This document shows, in pieces, positions 9,362 to 36,457 of a DNA stretch of 64,000 bases. The stretch covers positions 1-64,000 of the forward strand of contig DASUYB010000136.1 in the NCBI GenBank assembly GCA_036377595.1, in the 5' to 3' direction. Under the pieces are notes generated by a model. That model did not search any database, had not been told where the DNA came from, and worked only from the letters and a program-made list of their open reading frames with translations. Positions within the stretch are counted from its first letter, which is position 1. Every line of letters starts with the position of its first letter. Position numbers and translations under genes: made by a program. The stretch comes from Longimicrobium sp. GTDB taxonomy: Bacteria > Gemmatimonadota > Gemmatimonadetes > Longimicrobiales > Longimicrobiaceae.

Positions 9362-10879
9362 TCAGTCGGGGAGGCGGATGTTCAGGATCGAGCGGGTGGC
9401 GCCGGCCTGCACCTGCAGCGAGACGATGTCGCCGGGGCGCTTGCGGGCCATCGCCGCGCGGAAGGCGGCCACGTCGTTCACCGCCTGGCCGTCGACGGCC
9501 AGGATGCGCATCTCCTCCTGGATGCCGGCGCGGCTGGCGGGGCCGTACGGCTGCACGCCGGTCACGATCACCCCGCCGTTGCCGGCGTAGCCCTGCCGCC
9601 GCGCGATGTCGGGCGTGAGCGGGCCCACGGCCACGCCGAGCTTGCTGGCGCCGTTGTCGGTCGCCGCGGGCTGCGGCGTGCTTGCCGCCACGCGCTGCGA
9701 CGGGTCGGTCTGCGCTTGGATCAGCGTGACCTTCACCTGCCGGCGGTTGCCGTAGCGGATCACGTCGAGCGTCACCTGGTCGCCCGGGTGGTAGCCGGCG
9801 ATCACGCGCTGGAACTGGCCCACGCGCTGGATCGGCTTCCCGTCCACCGCCACGATCACGTCGCCCTGGCGCATCCCGGCGCGCTCGGCGGGCGAGCTGG
9901 CGGTGAAGTCCTGCGCCACCACCCCCTCGATGCGCTGGAGCCTGTAGACCTCGGCGTCCTCGGGGGTGACCTCGGTGATCTGCACGCCCAGCGCGGGGCG
10001 GCGCACCGCGTGGTAGCGGATCAGGTCGTCGGAGATGCGGCGCGCCAGGTCGACCGGCACGGCGAACCCGTATCCCGAGTAATAGCCGGTGCGCGAGGCG
10101 ATGGCGCTGTTCACGCCGACCACCTCGCCGCGGAGGTTGACGAGCGGGCCGCCCGAGTTGCCGGGGTTGATGGGCGCGTCGGTCTGGATGAAGTCCTCGA
10201 TGGCCCAGCGGCTCCCCGAGGTCTGGCCGATGATCCCCAGCCCCCGCCCCTTGGCGCTGATGATCCCCGAGGTGACGGTGGTCCCCAGGTCCAGCGGGTT
10301 GCCGATGGCCAGCACCCACTCGCCGATGCGGGCGGTCTCGGAGCTCCCCAGGCGCACGGTGGGAAGGCCGCGCGCGTCGACCTTGATCACCGCGATGTCG
10401 GTCAGCGGGTCGCGGCCCACCACGGTGGCGCGCAGGTGCCGGTTGTCCTGCAGCACCACGTCGATCTTGTCGGCGTCGGCCACCACGTGGTTGTTGGTCA
10501 GGATGTAGCCGTCGGCCGAGATGATGAAGCCCGAGCCGCGGCCCTCCTGCGGCGCGTTCTGGTCGGGCATGCGGAACTGCGGGAACATGCGCCGGAAGTC
10601 GTCGGCCTCCGGCCCCTCCTCGCCGCCATCGCCGCCGCCGCGCGGGCGCCGCTCGGTGTCGATGGAGACCACCGCGGGCGTGACGCTCTCGGCGATGGAG
10701 ATGAAGGCGTCGCTGAGGTCGGCCACCGGCTTGACGTCGGTGCGGCTGGGGGCCTGCTGCAGCACGGCGGCGTGGCCGCCGGCGGTCAGGTCCAGCCCCG
10801 AGGCCAGCAGCACCCCGCCGGTAAAGGCAACGGCGGTGGCGGCGATCAGCGTAATCCTGGTGCGCACTGGATCGGGCAT
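9362..10879 (-). CDS. degP: HtrA/DegP-type periplasmic serine protease
   Basis: A 505-residue trypsin-like protease/chaperone with two PDZ domains. Residues about 8-28 form an N-terminal membrane anchor or signal. The protease domain carries the triad His131 (LTNNHVV), Asp161 (DPLTDIAVIK) and Ser242 (NPGNSGGPL). PDZ1 spans about 320-400 (ASSPAERAGMRQGDVIVAVDG) and PDZ2 about 420-500 (GPASRAGIQEEMRILAVDG). The ATG at 10879 is chosen over an in-frame start 17 codons upstream because the basic-hydrophobic signal begins there. A Gly-rich loop (about residues 79-90) follows the first protease strand. It likely handles misfolded envelope proteins, fitting its place downstream of dnaK. Confidence 0.93.
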   Translation of the reverse strand: MPDPVRTRITLIAATAVAFTGGVLLASGLDLTAGGHAAVLQQAPSRTDVKPVADLSDAFISIAESVTPAVVSIDTERRPRGGGDGGEEGPEADDFRRMFPQFRMPDQNAPQEGRGSGFIISADGYILTNNHVVADADKIDVVLQDNRHLRATVVGRDPLTDIAVIKVDARGLPTVRLGSSETARIGEWVLAIGNPLDLGTTVTSGIISAKGRGLGIIGQTSGSRWAIEDFIQTDAPINPGNSGGPLVNLRGEVVGVNSAIASRTGYYSGYGFAVPVDLARRISDDLIRYHAVRRPALGVQITEVTPEDAEVYRLQRIEGVVAQDFTASSPAERAGMRQGDVIVAVDGKPIQRVGQFQRVIAGYHPGDQVTLDVIRYGNRRQVKVTLIQAQTDPSQRVAASTPQPAATDNGASKLGVAVGPLTPDIARRQGYAGNGGVIVTGVQPYGPASRAGIQEEMRILAVDGQAVNDVAAFRAAMARKRPGDIVSLQVQAGATRSILNIRLPD

Positions 10880-11039
10880 GGGGGTGTGATTCGGGTTGTG
10901 CGGGATGGGTGATGCTAATCCTCCACCCATAAAAGTGCCTGCGCGGCAGCGACTTCGGTAGGGGGTCGGATTAGATGGGGATTAGCCGCCCCGGGAGATC
11001 CGGCTTCCGTGCGGCCCGCCGCCATGAGACCCTCACCCG

Positions 11040-29564: not shown

Positions 29565-30506
29565 ATGCCCGACAACACCACGCCGGGAACCGTCGCCGGC
29601 GGCGCGGTGCCCACGCCTGCCATCGCGGGGCTCGCGTTCAAGATCAACGAATCGGCCATGATCCCCGTCGAGTCCGGCCAGGCCGTGGCGAAGGGGTGGC
29701 CGGCGTCGATCGGCGGCAAGCCGGTGGGCGTGACCTGGCACTGGACGGTGACCCACAACCTGCTGGTGTGCCGGCAGGTGCTGGGCGGCAGGAACGCGGA
29801 GCGGAAGGGCGAGGCGTCGGCGCACTACGGGATCGGCCGCAGCTTCGCCGAGGGCGTGGACCGCTACGTGTCGCTGGAGAACCGCTCGTTCCACGCCGGC
29901 ATCGGCCAGACGATGCAGTTCGACGGCAAGGCGCTCTCCAGCCCCGACTTCAAGGGCTCGCGCAGCACGATCGGGGTGGAGACGGTGACCATCGGCGCGG
30001 TCGACGGCTCCAAGGCGAAGCCCGACTTTATCCGCACCGCGGGCCCGCACGGCGAGCCGCTGTTCGTGCAGCCGTGGACCGAGGAGCAGGTCGCGATGAT
30101 GATCGCCATCGGCGTGGAGATCGTCACGCGCTTCCCGAACATCCAGCCGCGGCACCACCACGGACACCACGACATCTGCCCCGACCGCAAGATCGACGTG
30201 GCGGGCTTCCCCTTCGCGCGCGTGCTGCGCGGGATCTATCCCAAGCTGGAGATTCCCGACGTGTGGACGCCGCTGCTGACGGTGCGTCAGCGCCAGCGCG
30301 CGCTGATCGCGCTCGGCTTCAACCTGGGCGCCAGCGGCGCCGACGGCGACTTCGGGCAGAAGAGCCGCGACGCGCTGACCCTCTTCCAGAAGCAGAACGG
30401 GCTGTTCGCGAACACCCGCTGGAGCACGTTCGTGAACTGGAAGCTGCACGATGTGTTCAAGGCCAAGGGGATGGACCTGGCCAAGGTCACCGGCGCCGCC
30501 GACTGA
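29565..30506 (+). CDS. N-acetylmuramoyl-L-alanine amidase with PG-binding domain
   Basis: A 313-residue protein. Residues about 45-220 are an Amidase_2-type zinc amidase: WHWTVTH, then SAHYGIG, and HHHGHHDICPDRKIDVAG late in the domain. Residues about 235-300 are a peptidoglycan-binding_1 domain (QRALIALGFNLGASGADGDFG). There is no signal peptide, unusual for a housekeeping amidase and more like phage or contractile-tail endolysins. Start: an AAAGGAG site lies 5 bp before the ATG at 29565, so the longer upstream frame is rejected. A heptamer array begins 12 bp after the stop. Confidence 0.87.
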   Translation: MPDNTTPGTVAGGAVPTPAIAGLAFKINESAMIPVESGQAVAKGWPASIGGKPVGVTWHWTVTHNLLVCRQVLGGRNAERKGEASAHYGIGRSFAEGVDRYVSLENRSFHAGIGQTMQFDGKALSSPDFKGSRSTIGVETVTIGAVDGSKAKPDFIRTAGPHGEPLFVQPWTEEQVAMMIAIGVEIVTRFPNIQPRHHHGHHDICPDRKIDVAGFPFARVLRGIYPKLEIPDVWTPLLTVRQRQRALIALGFNLGASGADGDFGQKSRDALTLFQKQNGLFANTRWSTFVNWKLHDVFKAKGMDLAKVTGAAD

Positions 30507-30518
30507 CCCGCTCGGCTA

Positions 30519-30680
30519 GTGCCCAGTGCCCAGTGCCCAGTGCCCAGTGCCCAGTGCCCAGTGCCCAGTGCCCAGTGCTCAGTGCCCAGTGCTCAGTGAT
30601 CGCAGACTGGGCACTGGGCACTTTCGCACTTTCGCACTTTCGCACTCTCGCACTCTCGCACTTTCGCACTTTCGCACTTG
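30519..30680. repeat. GTGCCCA heptamer array joined to TTTCGCAC octamer array
   Basis: About ten GTGCCCA/GTGCTCA heptamers (30519-30596), a short GATCGCAGACT link, two reverse-oriented heptamers (GGGCACT), then about seven TTTCGCAC/TCTCGCAC octamers. Opposite orientations allow hairpin folding. Confidence 0.88.
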
Positions 30681-30765
30681 CGCATCCCCCTGACCGGCCC
30701 ACCTCTTGCACCCGCGCGCTGCGTCGAATTGCGCGCTCCGGCCCATCCCGCAAGGAGTTTTCATC

Positions 30766-32070: not shown

Positions 32071-32297
32071 GTTTCGCGCTACGGGATGCCTCGCCGCTCC
32101 CCTGCTCCCGTCAGGGCCACCCTGTAGACCGTCCCACGGCGCATCACTCCATGCCGCGGTCCGTGGCGTTCGTACCAATCTCGTCCCCTTGCACGCCCCG
32201 TCGCGCGAACGTACCGCTGCGTCCGCCGTGATGCGGGCGCCGCCGCTCTCCGGACGGCCGCGGGCGGCGACGGAACCATCACCCGAAGGAGCGTGCC

Positions 32298-32639
32298 ATG
32301 AAAAACAAGATCTCTCTGGACCTCGACGCCCTGACGGTGGAGTCGTTCGAGATGGGAACGGACTTCCACTCCATGCTGGGCACGGTGGAAGGGCACCTGA
32401 GCCCCACCTGCAACACGCGCGCGGCGTGTAGCTGCGGCAGCGCCTGCGAGGGCACCTGCTTCAACACCTGCGACACGTGCGACGCGTCGTGCCTGGGCAC
32501 CTGCGGCACCTGCGCCGGCCAGAACACGTGCGGCGGCTCCACCTGCGTCGGGACCTGCGGCGAGGCCACCTGCGCGGCCAGTTGCTACGACACCTGCGGC
32601 ATCAGCTGCTTCGACACCTGCCCGCCGTGCCCGATGTGA
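32298..32639 (+). CDS. Cysteine-rich RiPP-like precursor peptide
   Basis: A 113-residue peptide preceded by a GAAGGAG site. The leader reads ISLDLDALTVESFEMG, then a short linker to about residue 36. The following 77 residues contain 19 cysteines, 15 of them directly after Thr or Ser (GTC, NTC, ASC and similar), with many Asp and Gly and almost no basic residues. Two downstream peptide genes share the leader motif L-x-L-D-x3-L-x-V-(E/D)-S-F but not the core. This is the organisation of RiPP precursors; Thr/Ser plus Cys would suit lanthionine chemistry. A metal-binding role is the main alternative. No modifying enzyme is in the window. Confidence 0.72.
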   Translation: MKNKISLDLDALTVESFEMGTDFHSMLGTVEGHLSPTCNTRAACSCGSACEGTCFNTCDTCDASCLGTCGTCAGQNTCGGSTCVGTCGEATCAASCYDTCGISCFDTCPPCPM

Positions 32640-32647
32640 CGCGCGAT

Positions 32648-32680
32648 GCCGGAGCCGCGGCCCCGTGCCGCGGCTCCGGC
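32648..32680 (+). terminator. Terminator after the Cys-rich peptide gene
   Basis: GCCGGAGCCGCGG pairs exactly with CCGCGGCTCCGGC, loop CCCCGTG, 8 bp after the stop. There is no strong T run. Confidence 0.65.
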
Positions 32681-32838
32681 ACTTCCGCCGCTCGCGCCGC
32701 AGATTCGTCGGGCTTGACAGGCATGCCGGGTCGATGTAGCTTTCGTCCACCAACACGTCAGGCGCAGCCGAGAGCGGGCACCGCAGTGGCGGAGCTCCAG
32801 CGAGTGCAAACTCGCCTTGGCTGCGCACGTGTTTTTGG

Positions 32839-33567
32839 TCATCTCGGCCAGATCTTCCCGCGGTACACCTGCCCCTCCACGCTCCCCCACAGCTCCTGCA
32901 CCGCCCGCGCCGACGGCGAGGTCTTGTCGCGGTCGCGATGAAACCGCTGGCAGATGTATGCGCAGCAGTCCGCCAGCTGCATCAGCCGGCTGTTGTGCGA
33001 GCGCACCCAGTGCACGTTGTCGATCACCCGCGTCAGCTCGATGGGGCTGTGGCCGAACGAGGTGCCCAGCTCCTTGTAGCGCGCCAGGTCTTCGATGAAC
33101 TGCTGCTCCATCTCCTTCTCGTCGTCCGACACGATCAGGCCGAACTCCCGCCGCGCGCGCAGGAAGCGCTCGATGGTCTCGACCAGGTAGATGAACGCGA
33201 GCTTGTGCGGGTGCATGGGCGCGCGGTAGCGCCTGGCCAGCCGCGCCTTGTCGATCCCCACCCACATCAGCTCCGCCCCGTGCCGCCCCGGCAGCGCGAG
33301 CAGGTCGCGGTACAGCTCGACGCGGTCGCCTGGGCGCATCCCCGCGCACGGCCCTTGGCCGCGGTAGAGGTCGCTCCCCTTGCACTCGAAGCCGGGGCGG
33401 CGGCAGTCGTCGCCGAAGCGGTCCACGAGGAGGGAGGTCGCGCCGTCCTCGAGCCTGCGTGCGCGGGTGCCGTGCACCGCCAGCCCCACGAGGAAGTAGG
33501 CGGTGCTGGTAGGGTGATCCAGGTGCAGACCCGTGTTGCCGGATCCGTCGAGCAGGATGACGTACAT
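32839..33567 (-). CDS. DUF3800-domain protein
   Basis: A 242-residue protein. The N-terminus MYVILLDGSGNTG takes the place of the family's usual Y-x-D-E-S-G opening, followed by YFLVGLAV. The late block LMQLADCCAYICQRFH is the family's closing motif, and VSDDEKEM supplies acidic residues mid-protein. The RNase-H-like fold has been proposed for DUF3800, with acidic active-site residues; here the first motif carries D but G replaces E. It lies opposite in orientation to the small peptide genes and separates the first from the other two. Its role, possibly defence- or mobile-element-related, is inferred. Confidence 0.75.
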   Translation of the reverse strand: MYVILLDGSGNTGLHLDHPTSTAYFLVGLAVHGTRARRLEDGATSLLVDRFGDDCRRPGFECKGSDLYRGQGPCAGMRPGDRVELYRDLLALPGRHGAELMWVGIDKARLARRYRAPMHPHKLAFIYLVETIERFLRARREFGLIVSDDEKEMEQQFIEDLARYKELGTSFGHSPIELTRVIDNVHWVRSHNSRLMQLADCCAYICQRFHRDRDKTSPSARAVQELWGSVEGQVYRGKIWPR

Positions 33568-33770
33568 GCGGCGGCATCATGGGCGAGAGCACGTGACGGT
33601 GGCGATGAGAGGCGCGCAGAGTACGTTTGCCCCGTTTGCTTTGCAAGCACTTTTCAAGGCACAGGAACAAAGACGCCACCGCTGGCACAGCGATCAATCC
33701 CTTCGCGCCGCGTTGGGGACGGAGTCACATTTCGTCCATCGCGCGCCCACATCGTCCTGTGCTCCGCGGG

Positions 33771-34123
33771 CGACGGCTCGTCCCACGTTCGTCGCGCGTC
33801 CGGCGAACAGGCCGCACCGTTCGCGTGCGGGTCCCGCTCGGCCGGAGATCTCCGGGTGCGGCGTGGGCCCGTCCACCCGAATCATGGAGCGTAGAGGATG
33901 AACAAGCTGTCGCTGGACGTCGAAGAGCTGCGGGTCGATTCCTTCGAAACCAACGAGCGCGCGGGCGATGACAGGGGATTCGCCTGGAGCGACGATTCCG
34001 TCTGCCCGACGACGGCGCCGTCGGATCGGCGGCCCTGCTACTGATCTTCACCGGCCCGGCGCGGCGGATGGACGGCGCGCCGGGTATCTGTTCGTGTCTC
34101 CCATGCGACGGCTCGTCCCACGA
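33771..34123 (+). repeat. Direct repeat upstream of peptides B and C
   Basis: CGACGGCTCGTCCCACG occurs at 33771-33787 and 34107-34123, 111 and 96 bp before the starts of peptides B and C. Less exact similarity continues downstream (GTCGCG..., GCACC-TTCGCG...), so the whole gene unit seems to have duplicated. Confidence 0.7.
33898..34044 (+). CDS. RiPP-like precursor peptide B (48 aa)
   Basis: A 48-residue ORF, too short for most gene callers. The leader LSLDVEELRVDSFETN matches peptides A and C, and the C-terminal part WSDDSVCPTTAPSDRR ends in PCY with only two cysteines. The same W-S-x-D-S-x-C-P-T segment appears in peptide C. The ATG follows a purine-rich GGAGCGTAGAGG. Upstream DNA shares a 17-bp repeat with that of peptide C. 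Precursor status is inferred from the leader. Confidence 0.65.
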   Translation: MNKLSLDVEELRVDSFETNERAGDDRGFAWSDDSVCPTTAPSDRRPCY

Positions 34124-34218
34124 CCGTCGCGGCGGGGGGCGGAGATGCGGCACCTTCGCGGTACGGGCCCGGTGAGCGTCCCTCGCCGGGTCCGCCCCAC
34201 CCGAGCCGCGGAGACGCG

Positions 34219-34389
34219 ATGAAGAGGCTGATGCTGGATCCCGACGACCTGCGGGTCGAATCGTTCGGCACCGGGCGCGAGGAGCGCGCGGTGCGCGGCC
34301 ACGAGTACAGCGGCGGCTGGAGCTGCGATTCCATCTGCCCCACGGTGACCGACCCCGAGCGCTGCTGCCGGACTCCGCGTCCGTACTGA
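34219..34389 (+). CDS. RiPP-like precursor peptide C (56 aa)
   Basis: A 56-residue ORF. The leader reads LMLDPDDLRVESFGTG; the core GGWSCDSICPTVTDPERCC holds four cysteines and several Thr/Ser, ending TPRPY. It is clearly paralogous to peptide B through leader, core segment and upstream DNA, and shares only the leader with the Cys-rich peptide. A perfect terminator hairpin lies 20 bp after the stop, supporting a real transcription unit. Confidence 0.67.
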   Translation: MKRLMLDPDDLRVESFGTGREERAVRGHEYSGGWSCDSICPTVTDPERCCRTPRPY

Positions 34390-36244: not shown

Positions 36245-36344
36245 GTTTGTTTCCGATCCGTCTGGTCCGGGTGCGCGTTGGTTTCTGAAGGGCGGCCAAT
36301 ATAGGGGACAGCAAGTATTCTGCCTACTGAGTGTTTGGAGACGA

Positions 36345-36457
36345 GTGCTGAGTGCCCAGTGCCCAGTGCCCAGTGCCCAGTGCGTTCGCACGAAACCTCC
36401 ACCGCGCTGAGTTCTCCCCTCCCCTGCGAAGCGGGGGAGGGGCCGGGGGAGGGGGCC
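36345..36457. repeat. Heptamer array plus C/G-rich box
   Basis: GTGCTGA and four GTGCCCA heptamers at about 36348-36382, then GCGCTGAGTTCTCCCCTC and the C/G-rich box to 36457. It lies upstream of the DEAD-box gene (minus) and the CoA-transferase gene (plus). Confidence 0.85.

Follow-up and report, generated by a model that had tools for sequence, protein, structure and literature searches.

Three small genes of a Longimicrobium sp. belong to a large, dispersed family of pinensin-leader-related precursors, probably of class I lanthipeptide type and modified in trans

Three small open reading frames in a stretch of 64,000 nucleotides of Longimicrobium sp. DNA (the window) are very probably members of a set of at least 203 class I lanthipeptide-type precursors, which are dispersed over the same genome, share a leader related to that of the pinensins and would be modified in trans. 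An earlier note, made from the letters of the window, had given the coordinates, strand, and cysteine counts (19, 2, and 4) of the three frames correctly, and its reading of them as RiPP-like precursors modified in trans is still the best supported, with the modification itself inferred; its view of them as an orphan set of three has had to be abandoned. All three frames are intact by ORF check, and an SD-like AAGGAG lies ahead of the ATG of precursor 1. The features of the locus are as follows.

32298..32639, + strand: precursor 1, with leader ISLDLDALTVESF, GTVEGH at residues 28-33, and a 19-Cys core rich in TC/SC pairs
32839..33567, - strand: DUF3800 gene, located between the first two precursors (PF12686, 2.4e-13)
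33770..33796, + strand: copy a of a 27-nt upstream repeat (GCGACGG...CGTCGCG), 128 nt 5' of precursor 2, from the repeat search
33898..34044, + strand: precursor 2, with leader LSLDVEELRVDSF and a core with 2 Cys
34105..34131, + strand: copy b of the 27-nt repeat, 93% identical, 114 nt 5' of precursor 3, from the repeat search
34219..34389, + strand: precursor 3, with leader LMLDPDDLRVESF and core WSCDSICPTVTDPERCCRTPRPY, containing 4 Cys

The leader motif that unites these peptides is LxLDxLxV(E/D)SF, usually followed by a GTVxA/G segment (122 of 141 precursors). It takes the forms LDLDALTVESF, LDVEELRVDSF, and LDPDDLRVESF in peptides 1, 2, and 3, respectively, and only the first is a full fit, positions three and four being V-E in peptide 2 and P-D in peptide 3. 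A first family HMM (A1) gave E values of 2e-12, 9.5e-12, and 7.6e-12 for precursors 1, 2, and 3. Because the window peptides were among its training sequences, an independent HMM was built from 17 leaders of LanB-adjacent precursors, with no window sequence included. It matches just three ORFs in the window, namely precursor 2 (8.7e-10), precursor 3 (2.3e-8), and precursor 1 (5.3e-8); the next best match there is at 0.32, and the reversed window gives none. Applied to a further 855 kb of this genome, it yields 191 matches, against 0 in the reversed sequence. The homology of the three leaders is far beyond chance, and the shared leader of the earlier note is therefore real, with its spacing amended: a single residue, rather than three, separates the Asp from the following Leu.

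Pfam assigns the window peptides to no family, neither Pfam nor NCBIfam gives a Nif11 match, and the leader contains, by sequence, no hydrophobic stretch resembling a signal peptide. The curated pinensin leader model NF038180 (leader_pinensin; cut-off 24 bits) scores precursor 2 at 13.7 bits, under the cut-off, and does not match precursors 1 and 3. At E<0.1, it matches 21 of 38 leaders (best 2e-7), and its cut-off is exceeded by the LanB-adjacent homologs L179 (29.7 bits), L183 (26.5 bits), and L181 (24.9 bits). Judged by these profile matches, the resemblance to pinensin leaders put forward in the earlier note holds at the level of the family, although the window peptides themselves fall short of the cut-off.

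The cores were said to diverge completely, and for peptides 2 and 3 this does not hold. The two are 51% identical in amino acid sequence, have WSxDSxCPT in common, and are 76% identical in DNA over the leader; from these alignments, precursor 2 is read as a tandem duplicate of precursor 3 that has since diverged, the duplication being marked by the shared 27-nt upstream repeat. This repeat is not shared beyond chance with other precursors. The DUF3800 gene has no counterpart at the syntenic locus of a congener (G003, locus L145) and is probably an insertion, outside the peptide system. The pentamer CACCC occurs 12-45 nt 5' of the start codon in 26% of the precursors of the genome, compared with 7% of control genes, and it also precedes the three window genes (32270-32297, 33870-33897, and 34195-34218). 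At 30500-30700 and 36330-36420 of the window, gene borders carry repeated intergenic tracts similar to CAGTGCCCAGTGCCCAGTGC, which can be read as SAQCPVPSAQCPV or TGHWALGTGHWALG, and their words recur in other contigs of the genome.

The congener's locus, with flanks of about 84% DNA identity, retains orthologs of peptide 1 (L145:9435-) and peptide 3 (L145:9888-) in swapped order. Between the two species, pN/pS is 0.40 in the core and 0.87 in the leader of peptide 1, and 0.22 and 1.06, respectively, for peptide 3, these values being point estimates from short alignments. The core of peptide 3 is 80% identical between the two, and two of its Thr are replaced by Ser in the congener, both at dehydratable positions. 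On these estimates, purifying selection acts between the species on both cores, and the leaders of the orthologs evolve fast outside the motif. Where their contigs reach the site, other relatives have the neighboring helicase but no peptides beside it, so the content of the site turns over quickly; only G003 was found to keep them.

The earlier note proposed looking for the leader elsewhere in the genome, and it proved to be abundant there. The assembly (G000) is a draft of 208 contigs. The exact motif occurs 38 times, against 0 for a reversed-pattern control, and the shorter LxV(D/E)(S/T)F occurs 162 times, against 15. The A1 HMM gives at least 150 matches, the weakest listed having an E value of 3.8e-8. 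Altogether there are at least 203 distinct precursors of 44-126 aa on more than 50 contigs, 183 of them at E<1e-6; the figure is a lower bound because the stretches examined surrounded known matches. The 150 matches listed group into 80 sites across 52 contigs; single genes make up 56 of the sites, the largest array has 18, and only 8 lie within 10 kb of a class I LanB/LanC. The genome therefore has what characterizes prochlorosin-type systems, many dispersed precursors per synthetase. A shared regulatory motif was considered and rejected, the enriched upstream 8-mers being coding sequence of neighboring precursors (VESF, DCTC).

Lanthipeptide synthetases, the other item to be sought in the genome, were also found, in the form of two class I LanB/LanC sets. 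Two of the outcomes that the earlier note had named as speaking against its reading, a leader confined to the window and a genome devoid of modification enzymes, therefore do not apply. Contig C103 encodes, in order, LanB (PF04738), a separate elimination protein (PF14028), LanC, about ten precursors with the same leader, an ABC transporter, and HlyD; C98 carries a second, diverged set. Class I LanB domains (PF04738 and PF14028) and LanC thus occur together at both, with the two LanB domains in separate proteins, the split arrangement of the pinensin family. LanB N-domains are found on C103, C98, and C1, the last in a LanB-like protein beside NRPS genes. Three proteins only have a LanC domain, the class I LanC of C103 and C98 and a RamC-type LanKC on C145, and there is no LanM synthetase among them. 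The zinc-ligand motifs of LanC are present (WCHGxPG, with CHG in C103 or CCG in C98), and the enzyme resembles the LanC part of LanM (TIGR03897, 246 bits). It is the C103 precursors, and not the window peptides, that lie beside LanB/LanC: the whole-genome search located no LanB or LanC gene on the window's contig. The statement that no modification enzyme or protease lies within 30 kb accordingly stands for LanB, LanC, and LanM and fails for proteases, since an HtrA-type protease gene, which looks like housekeeping, is present at 9365-10930 of the window. A C39 peptidase was rejected as leader protease, as it occurs in leader-positive and leader-negative genomes alike, with no correlation.

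The distribution of the leader follows that of LanB. Leader and LanB occur together in 10 of 21 family genomes, and LanB is found in 0 of the 11 that lack the leader; among 249 genomes of the phylum, this LanB is encoded in 7 of 7 leader genomes and 1 of 242 others. The Fisher p values, 2.8e-6 and about 7e-13, respectively, ignore phylogeny and therefore overstate significance. Eight genomes with at least 11 precursors have a LanB of the C103 type, 64-88% identical to that of C103, and two with fewer (G007 with 1 and G020 with 5) have only diverged LanB types, so that it is the C103 type, not the C98 type, that tracks precursor expansion. Outside the family the leader occurs in two genomes (G192 and G194), each with a single match 2-4 kb from LanB. 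A LanB scan of named genomes yielded 11 loci in Gemmatimonadota, Acidobacteriota, Thermoanaerobaculia, and Ignavibacteriales; a leader precursor is found in the flank of 8 (L178, L179, and L181-L186) and in the flanks of L177, L180, and L187 there is none. Relatives in Acidobacteriota and Ignavibacteriales keep the precursor beside LanB.

Every one of the 203 precursors contains Cys (at least 2, median 6, up to 25), in a core that is rich in Cys, Thr, and Ser. The cores are 15.6% Cys, against 0.8% in long ORFs of the same genome and 0.2% in the leaders, and 12.8% Thr, against 5.2% in the long ORFs. Ser or Thr directly precedes Cys in 43% of cases and lies five residues before it in 38%, where composition alone would predict 19.6%; among Cys pairs, a spacing of 4 is enriched. 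This is what the substrates of a dehydratase and a cyclase would look like, although composition is not proof of modification. Some cores are unusual. Two precursors on C83 (L104:7239-8073, about 17.2-18.1 kb of the contig) have 21 and 25 Cys, with runs (CCCCCCPCCC and CCVCCCDPCCC) that are hard to square with simple Ser/Thr-Cys rings. Near-perfect CSxC repeats, with 17 and 14 Cys, occur in precursors beside a second, diverged LanB type (L094:12834 and L153:13242), and LanB-adjacent precursors in Acidobacteriota-type genomes (L183:13371 and L184:13483) have cores of tandem TCGS repeats (TCGSTCGSTCGS). The ProcM-like CCG motif of the C98 LanC suggests a separate subsystem with CSxC-repeat precursors; as a cause of promiscuity the motif was rejected, being absent from the C103 LanC.

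Modification in trans is not the only conceivable explanation. The window peptides could be decaying relics of duplicated precursors, with only the LanB-adjacent peptides of the same leader being modified. The smaller number of Cys in precursor 2 than in precursor 3, the lack of peptides at the site in most relatives, and the divergence of the leaders outside the motif would fit with this, but decay is difficult to reconcile with open frames that are intact, with not one Cys-free precursor among 203, or with cores that, in peptides 1 and 3, evolve under purifying selection with exchanges of Thr and Ser, and we consider it unlikely. Alternatively, the peptides might be secreted unmodified as disulfide-rich or metal-binding, metallothionein-like products, the leader serving for export and not for reading by LanB. 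The great abundance of Cys in some of them (19 residues in peptide 1, and the 21 and 25 noted above) is in keeping with such a role; however, the leader accompanies LanB from genome to genome and adjoins it in several phyla, has the curated pinensin leader as a relative, contains no signal-peptide-like stretch, and is followed by Ser/Thr positioned relative to Cys, which together make this proposal very improbable.

The genome's RamC-type LanKC and third LanB-like protein could in principle replace split LanB as the modifying enzymes, but the stretches examined around LanKC and the C1 gene contain no leader match, the leader adjoins split LanB at many loci, and genomes G004-G006 have LanC-domain proteins and no leader; the chance that this is correct seems to us close to negligible. 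We therefore retain modification in trans by split LanB/LanC as the preferred reading. Counted against it are the distance of the window peptides from any enzyme gene, their NF038180 scores, the fast evolution of the leaders outside the motif, the retention of the peptides at the site by G003 only, the C39 search that yielded no leader protease, and the draft state of the genome.

As we envisage the pathway, the leader would dock onto split LanB (the glutamylation and elimination proteins), encoded mainly on C103 with the C98 set as a second, which would dehydrate Ser and Thr of the core. LanC could then close (methyl)lanthionine rings on the abundant core Cys. The leader would next be cut, possibly near GTVxA/G, a guess based on the conservation of that segment, and the product exported, perhaps via the ABC/HlyD pair beside the C103 LanC. 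Because dispersed and enzyme-adjacent peptides have a common leader, all of the precursors are probably served by one or two enzyme sets and end up as different ring-shaped peptides.

Nisin-type class I systems keep the precursor inside its own cluster and employ a full-length LanB, features that distinguish them from the present system; the proposed LanB dehydration and LanC cyclization of Ser/Thr and Cys are what the two would share. A further distinction is the FxLD-type leader of class I lanthipeptides such as nisin (PMC7268733). The pinensins of Chitinophaga pinensis, family I 17 in the same classification, have a split LanB and a LanC resembling the LanC part of LanM (PMC7268733), and in all of this, as in their related leader, they are like the system described here. 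Unlike them, this genome has more than 200 dispersed precursors, window peptides under the NF038180 cut-off, and many long, very Cys-rich cores. In organization the closer likeness is to the prochlorosins, with 29 precursors and ProcM (PMC12328550), and the synechococsins, with 79 and SyncM (PMC10783134), compared with at least 203 here. Their precursors also have a common leader and variable cores, are scattered in the genome in tandem or alone, and are served by a promiscuous synthetase (PMC10783134), although that is a class II LanM with a Nif11-type leader rather than a class I LanB/LanC with an unrelated one. The many-precursor logic is therefore already known, and what is new relative to the prochlorosins is the class I enzymes and a count of more than 200.

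No description of this expansion of precursors was found in the open-access literature, to which the search was confined. For the draft genome of Longimicrobium terrae, cluster-based mining gave a few lanthipeptide clusters, and no dispersed family is listed (PMC7291104); mining of this kind misses most of the precursor genes because they are far from any enzyme gene. The evidence leans, if only slightly, toward the broader proposition that more than 200 dispersed precursors of diverse sequence are modified in trans by one or two split LanB/LanC sets. This would be the largest combinatorial lanthipeptide repertoire yet described from nature and a prochlorosin-type system with class I enzymes, and it would have grown, inside one family of the Gemmatimonadota, out of a single precursor beside LanB. 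If modification does take place, hundreds of different ring-closed peptides come from a single bacterium that needs only one or two sets of enzymes for them. The prochlorosin principle would then hold for class I enzymes as well, peptide engineering would gain a highly tolerant LanB/LanC, and the purpose of such repertoires would become testable.
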